From NCBI GenBank assembly GCA_000687975.1, contig JIAB01000001.1:744001-808000 (forward strand): a stretch of DNA of 64,000 nucleotides, given 5' to 3'. Within the stretch, counting starts at the first letter, position 1, and each line of letters starts with the position of its first letter. This DNA comes from Lachnospiraceae bacterium AC2031 (GTDB taxonomy: Bacteria; Bacillota; Clostridia; Lachnospirales; Lachnospiraceae). The notes under the pieces were generated by a model. That model saw only the letters and a list, made by a program, of their open reading frames with translations. It ran no database searches and was not told the origin of the DNA. Below are positions 24,419 through 28,285 of this stretch, one piece after another. The position numbers and the translations under genes are program-made.

Positions 24419-25479
24419 TCTTTTCCTCCAGTAAAATAATTAATAAACTTATCTGCCACAACACTGCTCTCATAGTTTTGCAGATACACTTCTCTATTTA
24501 AAGGGCTAAAGGTTCGCACTCCACTTTCCAGATAAGTATTTATATTATTTATAAACGCAACCTCATCTTCACATAAGATACAGTCCTCTGATAGCTGATA
24601 TCCTTCAAAGCTTTCCTGTGTTCCAAAGATGACTTTCCCATACATCATTGCTTCGCAAGTCTTTGTCTTCATTCCGGAACCGCTGACGATCGGCATGACA
24701 ACTGCGGCCGCATTTCGGTACAACTCAGAAAGATCCTCCACATATCCATAAAACCGTATCTTGTCTGACGGGAACCGTCCCGCATACTTTTCCATATTCT
24801 TACCTGCCACGATCAGAGAAGCATTGATTTTTGGCATACAGTTTTCACAAAACCAGAACAAACCTTCCGTATTACCAAAAAAATCACACCCTATAAAGAG
24901 CAAATATAATTCTTTGTCTGTATCCGAATGCTCTCTTTCCGTAAACGCATCTTCCATCGAAGTTGGAATCAAAAGATCACTCCCCCGACCATAAAGTTTT
25001 TTCAATCTATCAGAATCTCTTTTGTTCAAAGTGATGACCGTATCCGAATAACGTACTAGTCGTCTTTCATAAGCAAAGATTGCGTGCTTATGAAAACTAC
25101 GCTTCAACTTTTTAATTAAACCCTTCGTTTTTTTATGCTGTTGGCAAAAATAATCATATTCTACGTTATGAAAAAAACTTATTACCTTCCTCTTCCGTAG
25201 TGAACGTCTACTGAAGGCCTCTTCCGTAGTACCATCTATAAAAACAAGGTCAGATTCTTCAACCTTACGTAGCAACTCTTTATCAAAACCACACTCACAC
25301 CCCGTCAGAACCTGAAAATTTTTAACTCTTTTAGAAAACCAATTCGTTGGTCTATGAGGTACGTAAAATAAAACTTCATCTTCTCCTGCCATTTTTTGCA
25401 AGAGTGCCAGATTTCTTTTCCGAATTACACTTCCTCCATAAGCCAAATCGTCTTGTGGATATGAATAATACAAAATCAT
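24415..25479 (-). CDS. Glycosyltransferase, family 4 (GT-B)
   Basis: A 354-residue protein with AGGAGA before the ATG; first gene of the export block. The C-terminal GT4 site is visible: LFIGCDFFGNTEG near 190, RFYGYVEDLSELY near 230, then MPIVSGSGMKTKTCEAMMYGK near 250-270. The N-terminal half lacks a signal peptide and is basic. The acceptor is unknown. No good promoter is visible upstream, though an inverted repeat lies at 25526. Confidence 0.83.
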   Translation of the reverse strand: MILYYSYPQDDLAYGGSVIRKRNLALLQKMAGEDEVLFYVPHRPTNWFSKRVKNFQVLTGCECGFDKELLRKVEESDLVFIDGTTEEAFSRRSLRKRKVISFFHNVEYDYFCQQHKKTKGLIKKLKRSFHKHAIFAYERRLVRYSDTVITLNKRDSDRLKKLYGRGSDLLIPTSMEDAFTEREHSDTDKELYLLFIGCDFFGNTEGLFWFCENCMPKINASLIVAGKNMEKYAGRFPSDKIRFYGYVEDLSELYRNAAAVVMPIVSGSGMKTKTCEAMMYGKVIFGTQESFEGYQLSEDCILCEDEVAFINNINTYLESGVRTFSPLNREVYLQNYESSVVADKFINYFTGGKE

Positions 25480-25525: not shown

Positions 25526-25542
25526 TGTTACGAATCGCAACA
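25526..25542. promoter_or_regulatory. 17-bp inverted repeat between divergent polysaccharide genes
   Basis: TGTTACGA and TCGCAACA pair at 7 of 8 positions around one base, 48 bases upstream of the dehydrogenase promoter's -35. It could be an operator, for example for the XRE domain encoded just downstream. Confidence 0.35.
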
Positions 25543-25617: not shown

Positions 25618-25657
25618 TTTATCATATGATATAAAAAACGCCAAAGGAGTCAGAATA

Positions 25658-27169
25658 ATGAAGCAACTATCCCTCCAACTTCTTTCACAAATAGTCCAAA
25701 ATAAACGCAAAAGCAAAAAATATACACAACTGGATATTGCAAAAGCAACGGGAATACACCGTTCTATCATCAGTAAAATCGAGTCTATGGAGCATACTCC
25801 TTCAGTCAATCAACTCCAAGCATTATCCGAAGTACTAGACTTTGACACAAAAGAACTCTTCATTGATTTTGAGACAGAAAAACAAACTAGCTCATTAGTC
25901 ACGAAACCATACAATATTGCTATTGCTGGAACAGGATATGTAGGACTATCCCTTGCAGTTCTTCTATCTCAGCTCAACTATGTTACCGCCGTAGATATTA
26001 TACCAGAAAAAGTAGATATATTAAATAACTTCACATCCCCTATCCAAGATGAATATATCGAAAAATTCTTAGCTGAAGCAAAAAATGGAAAAAGAAAACT
26101 CAACCTTGAAGCAACAACTGATGGGATTACTGCATATAAAAATGCTGACTTTATAATTATTGCAACTCCAACCAACTATGATCCTAAGAAAAACTTCTTT
26201 GATTGTTCATCTGTAGAATCAGTTATTGAATTAGTCCTTGAATCTACAAAAGACAGAAAAGAAAAACCAACTATCGTAATTAAATCAACTATCCCAGTTG
26301 GTTACACTATGTCTGTACGAGAAAAATATAATGCTGATAATATACTATTCAGTCCCGAATTCTTAAGAGAATCAAAAGCTTTATATGACAACTTATTCCC
26401 TAGCAGAATAATCGTCGGATGTGACGAAAACACAAGAGCAAAGGCAGAAGTTTTCGCAGCACTACTTCAACAAGGTGCAATCAAAACCCCTGTCGAAAAA
26501 CTATATATGGGATACACAGAAGCTGAAGCCACAAAACTCTTTGTAAATACATATCTTGCTCTAAGAGTATCATATTTCAATGAATTAGATACATATGCAG
26601 AAGTAAAGGAGCTGAATACTGCTTCAATCATAAAAGGAGTATGTCTTGATCCAAGAGTTGGAGATTATTATAATAACCCCTCCTTTGGATATGGTGGCTA
26701 TTGTCTTCCAAAAGACACAAAACAGCTATTGGCCAATTACAATGATGTACCTCAAAATATGATGTCAGCAATAGTTGAAAGCAATAGAACTAGAAAAGAT
26801 TTTATAGCAGATAGAGTTCTTGAAATCGCTGGAACATATGGTAACAGTGAAAGCTACTCATCAGCAAAAGAATCAAAACAAAAAGAGGTTGTCGTAGGCG
26901 TATACAGGCTCACTATGAAATCAAATTCAGACAACTTCCGTCAATCTTCTATTCAAGGTGTTATGAAAAGAATTAAAGCAAAAGGAGCTACAGTTGTAAT
27001 ATACGAACCGACACTTGAAGATGGCAGTACATTCTTCGGAAGTGAAGTTATAAATGATATAAAGAAGTTTAAAGAAAAATGCGGTTGCATAATTGCAAAC
27101 AGATACGATGCATCACTTGATGATGTTGAAGAAAAGGTTTATACACGAGACTTATTCAGAAGGGATTAA
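25658..27169 (+). CDS. XRE helix-turn-helix fused to UDP-glucose 6-dehydrogenase-type enzyme
   Basis: A 503-residue protein. Residues about 10-75 are an XRE/Cro helix-turn-helix ([21 protein letters not shown], then [15 protein letters not shown]). The rest is a full nucleotide-sugar dehydrogenase: [13 protein letters not shown] near 90, TPTNYD near 170, [14 protein letters not shown] near 230, and the catalytic Cys in [13 protein letters not shown] near 350. The enzyme part oxidises a UDP-hexose, probably UDP-glucose to UDP-glucuronate, feeding the epimerase seven bases downstream. Usual enzymes have about 390-450 residues with no DNA-binding domain. The fusion suggests a self-regulating enzyme, which is inference. 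Confidence 0.88.
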
Positions 27170-27175
27170 TATAAA

Positions 27176-28285
27176 ATGAAAAACAATAAAACAAAAATAG
27201 ATTTAAATGGAAAAACTATACTTGTTACAGGATCTCCCGGCTTTATTGGTGCCAATTTAGTACTTAGACTCCTTAAGGAAATATCTTCTGGAACAATAAT
27301 AAGCTTAGATAATTTGAATAACTACTATGATCCTAAGCTTAAAGAATATAGACTTGGATTAATAGAAGATGCAGCTAGAACAAGTAATGCAAAGCACATT
27401 TTTATCAAAGGTAATATTGCAGATAAATCTCTTATTGATCAAGTTTTTAATGATCATAAACCTGCTGTTGTAGTAAACCTCGCAGCACAAGCAGGTGTCA
27501 GATATTCAATAGATCATCCCGATGTATATATTGAAAGTAATATAATTGGATTTTATAACATATTAGAGGCTTGCAGATATAGCTATAACAATGGAGAATC
27601 AGGAGTTGAGCACTTAGTATACGCTTCATCCTCATCTGTATATGGAGGAAATAAAAAAGTGCCTTTCAGCACTGATGATAAAGTAGATAATCCTGTATCT
27701 CTTTATGCCGCCACAAAGAAATCAAACGAATTAATATGTCACAGTTATTCAAAATTATATAACATTCCTGCAACGGGTCTCCGATTCTTCACTGTATACG
27801 GTCCAGCAGGGAGACCAGATATGTTCTACTACTCTGCTACCGAAAAGCTTGTTAGAGGAGAAAACATTAAAATCTTCAACTATGGTAACTGCAAAAGAGA
27901 CTTTACATATATAGATGATATTGTTGAAGGAATATACAGAGTAATGCAAGGCGCCCCTGAAAAGAAAACTGGTGAGGACGGCCTTCCTATCCCACCATAC
28001 GCTTTATATAACATAGGTGGAGGAACACCAGAAAACCTTCTTGATTATATTACTACACTACAAGAAGAATTGGTTAATTCCGGTATACTTCCAAACGACT
28101 ACGATTTTGAGTCACATAAAGAGCTTGTTGCAATGCAACCTGGCGATGTTCCAGTCACATATGCTGACAGTAAAGGACTTGAGGATGATTATGGTTTTAC
28201 TCCAAATATAGGAATACGAGAAGGGCTTAGGAGCTTTGCAAAATGGTACAAAAAATCATCCGATATATCATCTAACATAAGTTGA
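27176..28285 (+). CDS. UDP-glucuronate 4-epimerase-like enzyme
   Basis: A 369-residue extended SDR protein. GSPGFIGAN is the NAD loop (near 18), SSSSVYG the active-site Ser (near 155) and YAATK the catalytic Tyr/Lys (near 180). QAGVRYSIDHPDVYIESN and RFFTVYGPAGRPDMFYY are typical of the family that converts UDP-glucuronate to UDP-galacturonate. It directly follows the dehydrogenase that would make UDP-glucuronate, giving a two-step supply of acidic sugar. It is a paralogue of the gene at 18203 in the same orientation. Confidence 0.85.
   Translation: MKNNKTKIDLNGKTILVTGSPGFIGANLVLRLLKEISSGTIISLDNLNNYYDPKLKEYRLGLIEDAARTSNAKHIFIKGNIADKSLIDQVFNDHKPAVVVNLAAQAGVRYSIDHPDVYIESNIIGFYNILEACRYSYNNGESGVEHLVYASSSSVYGGNKKVPFSTDDKVDNPVSLYAATKKSNELICHSYSKLYNIPATGLRFFTVYGPAGRPDMFYYSATEKLVRGENIKIFNYGNCKRDFTYIDDIVEGIYRVMQGAPEKKTGEDGLPIPPYALYNIGGGTPENLLDYITTLQEELVNSGILPNDYDFESHKELVAMQPGDVPVTYADSKGLEDDYGFTPNIGIREGLRSFAKWYKKSSDISSNIS

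Follow-up and report, generated by a model that had tools for sequence, protein, structure and literature searches.

Two enzymes that also regulate transcription, BirA and PutA, are among the described systems closest to the protein reported here. In both, DNA binding is coupled to a ligand; PutA is a catabolic enzyme, and its DNA-binding domain is of another fold than the helix–turn–helix (HTH) discussed below. BirA is described as a repressor of the bio operon (PMC6978683) and as a Group II ligase with an N-terminal DNA-binding domain, which Group I ligases lack (PMC4016012), and PutA, a proline dehydrogenase, as a repressor of the put operon (PMC6978683).

The protein in question is encoded in a 64-kb window, that is, the whole stretch of 64,000 nucleotides of Lachnospiraceae bacterium AC2031 DNA that was analyzed. 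Its 503-residue ORF starts with ATG (25658–27169, + strand) and joins an XRE/Cro-type HTH, a hinge, and a UDP-glucose 6-dehydrogenase (Ugd) in one chain. The protein resembles BirA in combining an enzyme with an N-terminal HTH and in belonging to an enzyme family with fused and unfused forms, and it would resemble PutA in being an enzyme that represses transcription. BirA, however, is an unrelated enzyme; the predicted target of the fused Ugd is its own gene, and its ligand coupling is putative. Klebsiella Ugd (3phl/3plr; Klebsiella is the source of 3phl according to the PDB titles), the UDP-glucose dehydrogenase 1dli/1dlj, which we take to be from Streptococcus, and the NCBIfam model PRK15057 all represent the same three-domain enzyme with the same motifs, but the short-type Ugds of the PDB match residues 86–503 only, so that the HTH lies outside the match. 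Since an enzyme and a DNA-binding domain occur in one chain, as judged by domain and motif content, we class the fused Ugd as an enzyme-repressor of the BirA/PutA kind, its regulation being predicted. Transcription-regulating enzymes are known as a kind; this enzyme, its operator, and its apparent origin appear to be new within the literature searched. Among the papers listed in that search, judged by titles, abstract openings, and term counts and with incomplete coverage of subscription papers, none described an HTH-fused UDP-glucose dehydrogenase.

The features of the locus are as follows.

25526–25542, no strand: operator, 17-bp palindrome TGTTACGAATCGCAACA; exact match to the family operator, centre at −124 from the start codon
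25590–25617, + strand: promoter TTGACT-16-TATAAT, matching 11 of 12 consensus positions
25620–25636, no strand: possible degenerate second operator with two mismatches, centre at −30
25643–25649, + strand: ribosome-binding site AAAGGAG, seen in the sequence; relatives also have ribosome sites
25658–25867, + strand: XRE/Cro-type HTH domain, residues 1–70; Pfam HTH_3, pLDDT 86–96, under purifying selection
25868–25912, + strand: hinge, residues 71–85; length varies among aligned relatives, pLDDT 54 in block 71–80
25913–27166, + strand: UDP-glucose 6-dehydrogenase, residues 86–503; intact active-site motifs, motif columns invariant in 42 fused proteins
27176–28285, + strand: NAD-dependent sugar-nucleotide epimerase (Pfam Epimerase/GDP_Man_Dehyd), 6 bp after the fused stop codon

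Architecture and spread of the fused protein

An earlier note, made from the letters of the window alone, had read a complete HTH in front of a complete dehydrogenase. Domain searches bear this out. HTH_3 (PF01381) matches the N-terminus at residues 15–67 (1.2e-11), followed by UDPG_MGDP_dh_N (PF03721; residues 86–261), UDPG_MGDP_dh (PF00984; 288–377), and UDPG_MGDP_dh_C (PF03720; 414–491); all of these exceed their Pfam gathering cut-offs, and the translation contains GTGYVG, TPTNYD, and GGYCLPK. The enzyme is of the short type; its best PDB sequence matches, the UDP-glucose 6-dehydrogenases 3phl (1.5e-141) and 1dli, both start at residue 86. The protein passes the TIGR03026 cut-off and scores 521 bits against PRK15057, under the cut-off of 757. 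Residues C349, K352, D353, K293, and N297, which presumably have catalytic roles, are invariant across 42 fused proteins, and each of six motif checks was passed by 92–95 of 95. The enzyme part would thus be expected, from its sequence, to convert UDP-glucose and NAD+ to UDP-glucuronate.

An AlphaFold2 model built on an alignment of the 42 fused proteins gives the blocks of residues 1–70 a pLDDT of 86–96, after which the value falls to 54 for block 71–80. Helices 6–19, 24–31, 35–42, and 50–60, all of high pLDDT, correspond to those of an XRE domain. The overall pTM was 0.59, and with this shallow alignment the stretch around the catalytic cysteine is among the poorly modelled parts of the enzyme; despite these parts, UDP-glucose dehydrogenases rank first in a fold search with the model (53–56% identity in the first six). 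A search of PDB sequences with the HTH profile gave, at a limit of 1e-8, only 8tac (DBP48, the top match), SinR (3qq6, 5tn0), and repressor C2 (2r1j), with E values from 2.8e-9 to 9.4e-9. SinR and repressor C2 are stand-alone regulators without an enzyme domain.

The start at 25658 is well placed because a promoter and a ribosome-binding site precede it, and a reading of the codons from residue 44 to the enzyme part found no in-frame ATG, GTG, or TTG. In a nonredundant set of 89 fused relatives, the start is ATG in 87, and 82 have an AGGA, GGAG, GAGG, or AAGG ribosome site; the N-terminus of most fused relatives reads MK-x-(L/F/I)-S. This N-terminus is hence the true one, and the domain fusion read in the earlier note is confirmed.

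A survey of how often the two domains occur together showed that the fusion is conserved. In the same family, 269 of 397 genomes gave some match to the protein, many of them to one part only or to distant enzymes. The fusion is present in at least 36, source genome included, counting listed matches that run from query residue 8 or lower to residue 502–503 (weaker matches were not listed). Within the genus it is found in 10 of 61 genomes, with two copies in one of them; in one of the ten it shows up as two matches in one open frame. Searching 299 family genomes with a profile of the HTH alone, with the best 19 or fewer candidates per genome scored, gave 38 strong matches (E < 1e-19) and, after a gap, a next match at 1.6e-15. 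Of these strong matches, 35 are the fusion: 33 lie in frames of 489–602 residues at dehydrogenase loci, one (G278) is a fused gene with an internal stop, and one (G001) is cut inside by a contig end; the remaining three are stand-alone regulators. In a phylum-wide sample of 398 genomes, with the best 12 or fewer candidates per genome scored, the fusion was found only in the source genome among 11 strong matches, the other 10 being frames of 126–182 residues.

Among 80 loci listed from named genomes, 50 (L074–L123) carry the HTH. Most of these are titled Lachnospiraceae, Ruminococcus, or other Clostridia; single or few loci are titled Selenomonas, Erysipelotrichaceae, Solobacterium, Mogibacterium, Streptococcus suis (two), Coriobacteriaceae, and Spirochaetales, labels that may reflect contamination because many of the records are metagenome bins. 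Four plasmid records, from Enterococcus (three) and Butyrivibrio (one), have the fusion, and the three that were read name the product merely “nucleotide sugar dehydrogenase”. A Segatella plasmid match (H9), aligned from residue 31, was excluded from the fused count: its CDS starts at the enzyme, a small separate ORF lies before it, and a query with residues 1–100 did not find it. No phage record matched that query. Eleven loci on contigs from viral collections, possibly not truly viral, carry the fusion. Two such contigs have two fused copies (L154 and L163 on one of 68.8 kb; L155, two copies within 10 kb) and represent mobile loci for surface polysaccharides or else contigs wrongly called viral. 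In a record titled [Clostridium] polysaccharolyticum (L032/L093), an internal TAG interrupts the fused gene, and its upstream operator sites match with one mismatch only. Taken together, the earlier statement that ordinary family members have no such domain holds for most Ugds but fails for the lineage of the window.

The HTH is maintained by purifying selection. Against the three nearest relatives (L074, L199/L075, and L201), its dN is 0.10–0.19, with synonymous sites saturated or, once, a dS of 1.43; the enzyme part gives a dN of 0.08–0.13 against the same three, and the HTH reaches 0.38–0.47 against more distant relatives. On a tree of the enzyme part, made by a quick method from 94 fused and 71 unfused rows, the fusion label requires 13 changes, compared with a mean of 53.6 for shuffled labels, and well-supported branches force four of them. 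The clade holding the window's protein is entirely fused (50/50 rows; SH-aLRT 98). The trait is thus clustered on the tree and has now and then been gained or lost. Relics of the HTH were sought in unfused relatives as enzyme matches extending back through stop codons, and the 10 upstream frames read (L056, L060, L063, and L067–L073) contained no remnant.

A palindromic operator upstream of the fused genes

Inspection of upstream regions led to a 17-bp palindrome, TGTYR-N7-YRACA, which was set as a fixed pattern and then tested within 250 bp upstream of the fused genes. Upstream rows shorter than 120 bases or sharing more than 30% of 16-mers with another row were removed, reducing the fused set from 101 to 89 and the unfused set from 88 to 80; also dropped were 14 profile matches that did not span HTH and enzyme, L207 (no start recovered), and L197 (no XRE start recovered). 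The exact operator precedes 50 of 89 fused genes, compared with 1 of 80 unfused Ugd genes and a mean of 0.4 of 89 in dinucleotide-preserving shuffles. With one mismatch allowed, the numbers become 76/89 and 9/80. The exact form is absent from 39 of the 89 fused genes, and 13 have no site even at one mismatch; upstream of the unfused tree rows, none of 67 has an exact site. When the spacing between the half-sites was varied from N0 to N20 (21 spacings), N7 alone stood out, with 50 genes, the next best spacing giving 8/89.

Because the pattern was picked post hoc, sequences fetched later matter as a check. All three plasmid genes read (of four records) have an exact site and a second one within one mismatch, two of the three being close Enterococcus relatives of each other. 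Among seven later-fetched genes of the genus, four have the exact operator and all seven a site within one mismatch; L199, whose sequence equals that of L075, is outside this count. A tree-corrected test of fusion against operator had only four independent pairs and, while agreeing in direction, gave no significance.

The two halves of the operator vary together. In 67 distinct exact sites, the covariation of pairs 4/14, 5/13, and 6/12 was matched by 0, 1, and 2 of 5000 permutations, respectively; that of pair 8/10 is weaker (102/5000), and pair 7/11 shows none. At position 6, on which the pattern places no constraint, 66 of the 67 have C or T. Such paired symmetric changes are, at the sequence level, the trace expected of a protein dimer reading two half-sites. 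Unsupervised discovery of palindromes by expectation–maximization (EM) at width 17 found a weak palindrome in 84 of 89 fused regions with a log-likelihood of 870, against 409 for the unfused set and 423–527 for three shuffled sets. At six other widths, EM converged on base composition and repeats, and because of this noise we relied on the fixed pattern and the spacing scan instead. The fusion-specific, symmetric nature of the operator suggests that it is bound by the HTH of the fused protein.

Where the recognition helix of a fused gene product has the sequence MIGRxE (e.g., L013, L016, L028, L029, and L031), the sites upstream tend to end in AGCA or AGAA rather than AACA. In a post hoc test with one independent pair only on starred branches, Ser or Gly in the recognition helix was associated with ACA or AGMA in the operator (Fisher P = 0.005 and 0.0003), AGMA-type operators being found in 6/13 Gly, 3/68 Ser, and 3/80 unfused cases. 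As a lead, a Ser-to-Gly change in the helix seems to go with an altered operator base.

Measured by their centres from the start codon, 34 of 75 exact sites lie at −200 to −100, 26 at −45 to −15, and 15 elsewhere. In the Butyrivibrio and Enterococcus plasmids, the two sites flank a promoter-like sequence (read by eye). The helical phasing that a DNA loop would produce did not show clearly: when 11 periods were scanned, on sequences that are related to each other, the distances in 35 pairs of sites (median 130 bp) fit periods of 11–11.5 best, and not 10.5.

Of the two sites in the window, the upstream one alone is intact. The inverted repeat at 25526–25542, proposed earlier as a candidate binding site, proved to be an exact match to the family operator, and the only one in the 64 kb. 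It was identified via relatives and not from the window alone, because with one mismatch allowed the window holds nine sites, no more than expected by chance (shuffle mean 6.3). The downstream site is degenerate. Close relatives (L074, L075, and L200) have a site at −31 to −33, the same place as 25620–25636, but we call the latter only suggestive, since 68% of shuffled regions also hold a match at two mismatches.

Proposed mechanism, regulatory reach, and alternatives

We propose that the fused protein is a two-in-one UDP-glucose dehydrogenase and autoregulator that represses its own transcription unit through the 17-bp operator, a reading to which we assign a probability of roughly 0.8. Its C-terminal part would produce UDP-glucuronate from UDP-glucose and NAD+, and its N-terminal HTH, paired via the enzyme dimer, would bind the palindrome. 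In many relatives, one copy of the operator appears to sit upstream of the promoter and another between it and the start codon. Occupied sites would repress the gene's own unit, here ugd and the epimerase gene, and the DNA between two operators may be looped; we infer repression because a site lies between promoter and start codon. Operator occupancy may plausibly respond to the UDP-sugar or NAD(H) state, which would give feedback at the level of transcription.

The main rival to such ligand control is autorepression without it. The enzyme part would then serve for dimerization only, and DNA binding would be set by the amount of protein rather than by substrate, product, or NAD, so that the fusion would hold the amount of enzyme steady whenever the gene moves into a new genome and under a new promoter. 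That the operator serves its own gene only, and that the fused gene occurs on plasmids and across many taxa, fits this reading; the variable length and sequence of the linker and its low-confidence, flexible-like hinge argue against tight coupling. Known enzyme-repressors of similar build (PutA and BirA), however, couple both functions, and we consider autorepression by protein amount a serious possibility with somewhat less than even odds.

The protein could also be a local regulator that controls neighboring polysaccharide genes together with its own, as the earlier note suggested. The operator of the window lies 47 bp from the start codon (25479) of a divergent glycosyltransferase-like gene, and the upstream neighbor is divergent in 43 of 76 loci (crude ORF call). 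This arrangement is missing in the other 33, and the 64-kb window has no further exact site. A scan of 692,999 bases surrounding 46 fused loci placed 42 exact sites in the 260 bp before the fused genes themselves and 17 at other places, whereas a reversed control pattern gives 2 and likewise 17; of the 17 outside sites, 14 are inside ORFs, and two of the other three belong to the second fused gene in L155. The source genome has no excess either: a slightly stricter version of the pattern matches 19 times, its control 30 times. We therefore find no backing for direct control of the polysaccharide genes and regard it as unlikely. Since the operator is enriched neither elsewhere around the loci nor in the genome, it appears to be dedicated to the gene's own transcription unit. 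A matching site is conserved before the gene in distant relatives, and for this reason the gene probably controls its own production. The reading that fits the fused protein best is hence that of an autoregulator devoted to its own unit, not to the polysaccharide cluster; the divergent gene at 25479, which shares the intergenic region, is the sole neighbor that could be co-controlled.

That unit probably includes the epimerase gene as operon partner, and the product may be a UDP-glucuronate 4-epimerase. Counting the window, 24 of 76 loci have an epimerase homologue as the next same-strand gene; in four loci the epimerase lies on the opposite strand. In seven of the 76, the next same-strand gene is a Ugd homologue, the case of L032 being maybe the rest of the interrupted fused gene. 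Six loci (L008, L090, L098, L107, L112, and L163) have a second dehydrogenase homologue downstream on the same strand, 60–62% identical to that of the window; only the first gene of these tandem Ugd-type pairs was counted as HTH-fused. In the window, the fused gene and the epimerase gene form a + strand island amid minus-strand genes for glycosyltransferase-like proteins and transporter parts (names given by eye).

Autoregulation is also to be preferred over a vestigial or protein-binding HTH without a DNA function. Some close tree relatives do without the HTH, which must therefore be dispensable for the enzyme, but purifying selection on the domain and a symmetric operator that is specific to the fusion (an exact site in 1/80 unfused Ugds and 0/67 unfused tree rows) make this very improbable. 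An artefact, be it a misassigned start codon or two genes joined, has nothing in its favor and a negligible chance, given that start, ribosome site, N-terminus, and unbroken frame are conserved in dozens of assemblies and that three plasmid records annotate one CDS with the same start.

Origin of the HTH and implications

The nearest stand-alone relatives of the HTH that were found are small XRE regulators, 116–124 residues long in the six loci where an ORF clearly starts with ATG. In all nine loci read (of 10 matches), an ORF with a metallopeptidase-like HExxH motif lies beside the regulator; two of these peptidases, tested with profiles, match Peptidase_M78 and PADLOC PDC-M69B and, more weakly, CapH/CapP. 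The recurrent operon of small XRE regulator and HExxH metallopeptidase (M78-type where tested) is seen in L190–L198 and L239–L241, and several of these loci, if long enough, encode a third protein whose start is of the “LDANFLIPPDRS” type and which had no Pfam match in the one case tested. Four of eight upstream regions of the stand-alone XRE genes have a site within one mismatch of the operator, centred at −54 or −55 (e.g., TGTTATTTAGAGTATCA), another carries a match with one mismatch at a different position, and three have none.

Because several upstream regions of these XRE–M78 (ImmA/IrrE-like) modules carry similar sites, the HTH of the fused protein and its site preference probably go back to the regulator of a candidate defence module or to a common ancestor with it. 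There, the regulator is a small, separate protein, whereas in the fused Ugd the HTH is joined to an enzyme. Going further, and tentatively, a captured repressor HTH, probably of XRE–M78 origin, may make the protein a self-contained metabolic thermostat, in which occupancy of the dimer's active site by UDP-glucose, UDP-glucuronate, or NAD(H) would switch it between catalysis and looping of its own promoter through two flanking 17-bp operators; we give this reading somewhat less than even odds.

Many bacterial surface polysaccharides are reached by way of UDP-glucuronate. With a conserved operator belonging to the dehydrogenase itself, transcriptional feedback can be tested directly on a single protein and a single DNA fragment. 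The fusion also shows how control can travel with a mobile biosynthetic gene, and if the thermostat reading is true, the step at which sugar is committed to acidic surface polysaccharide would regulate itself wherever the gene is transferred.
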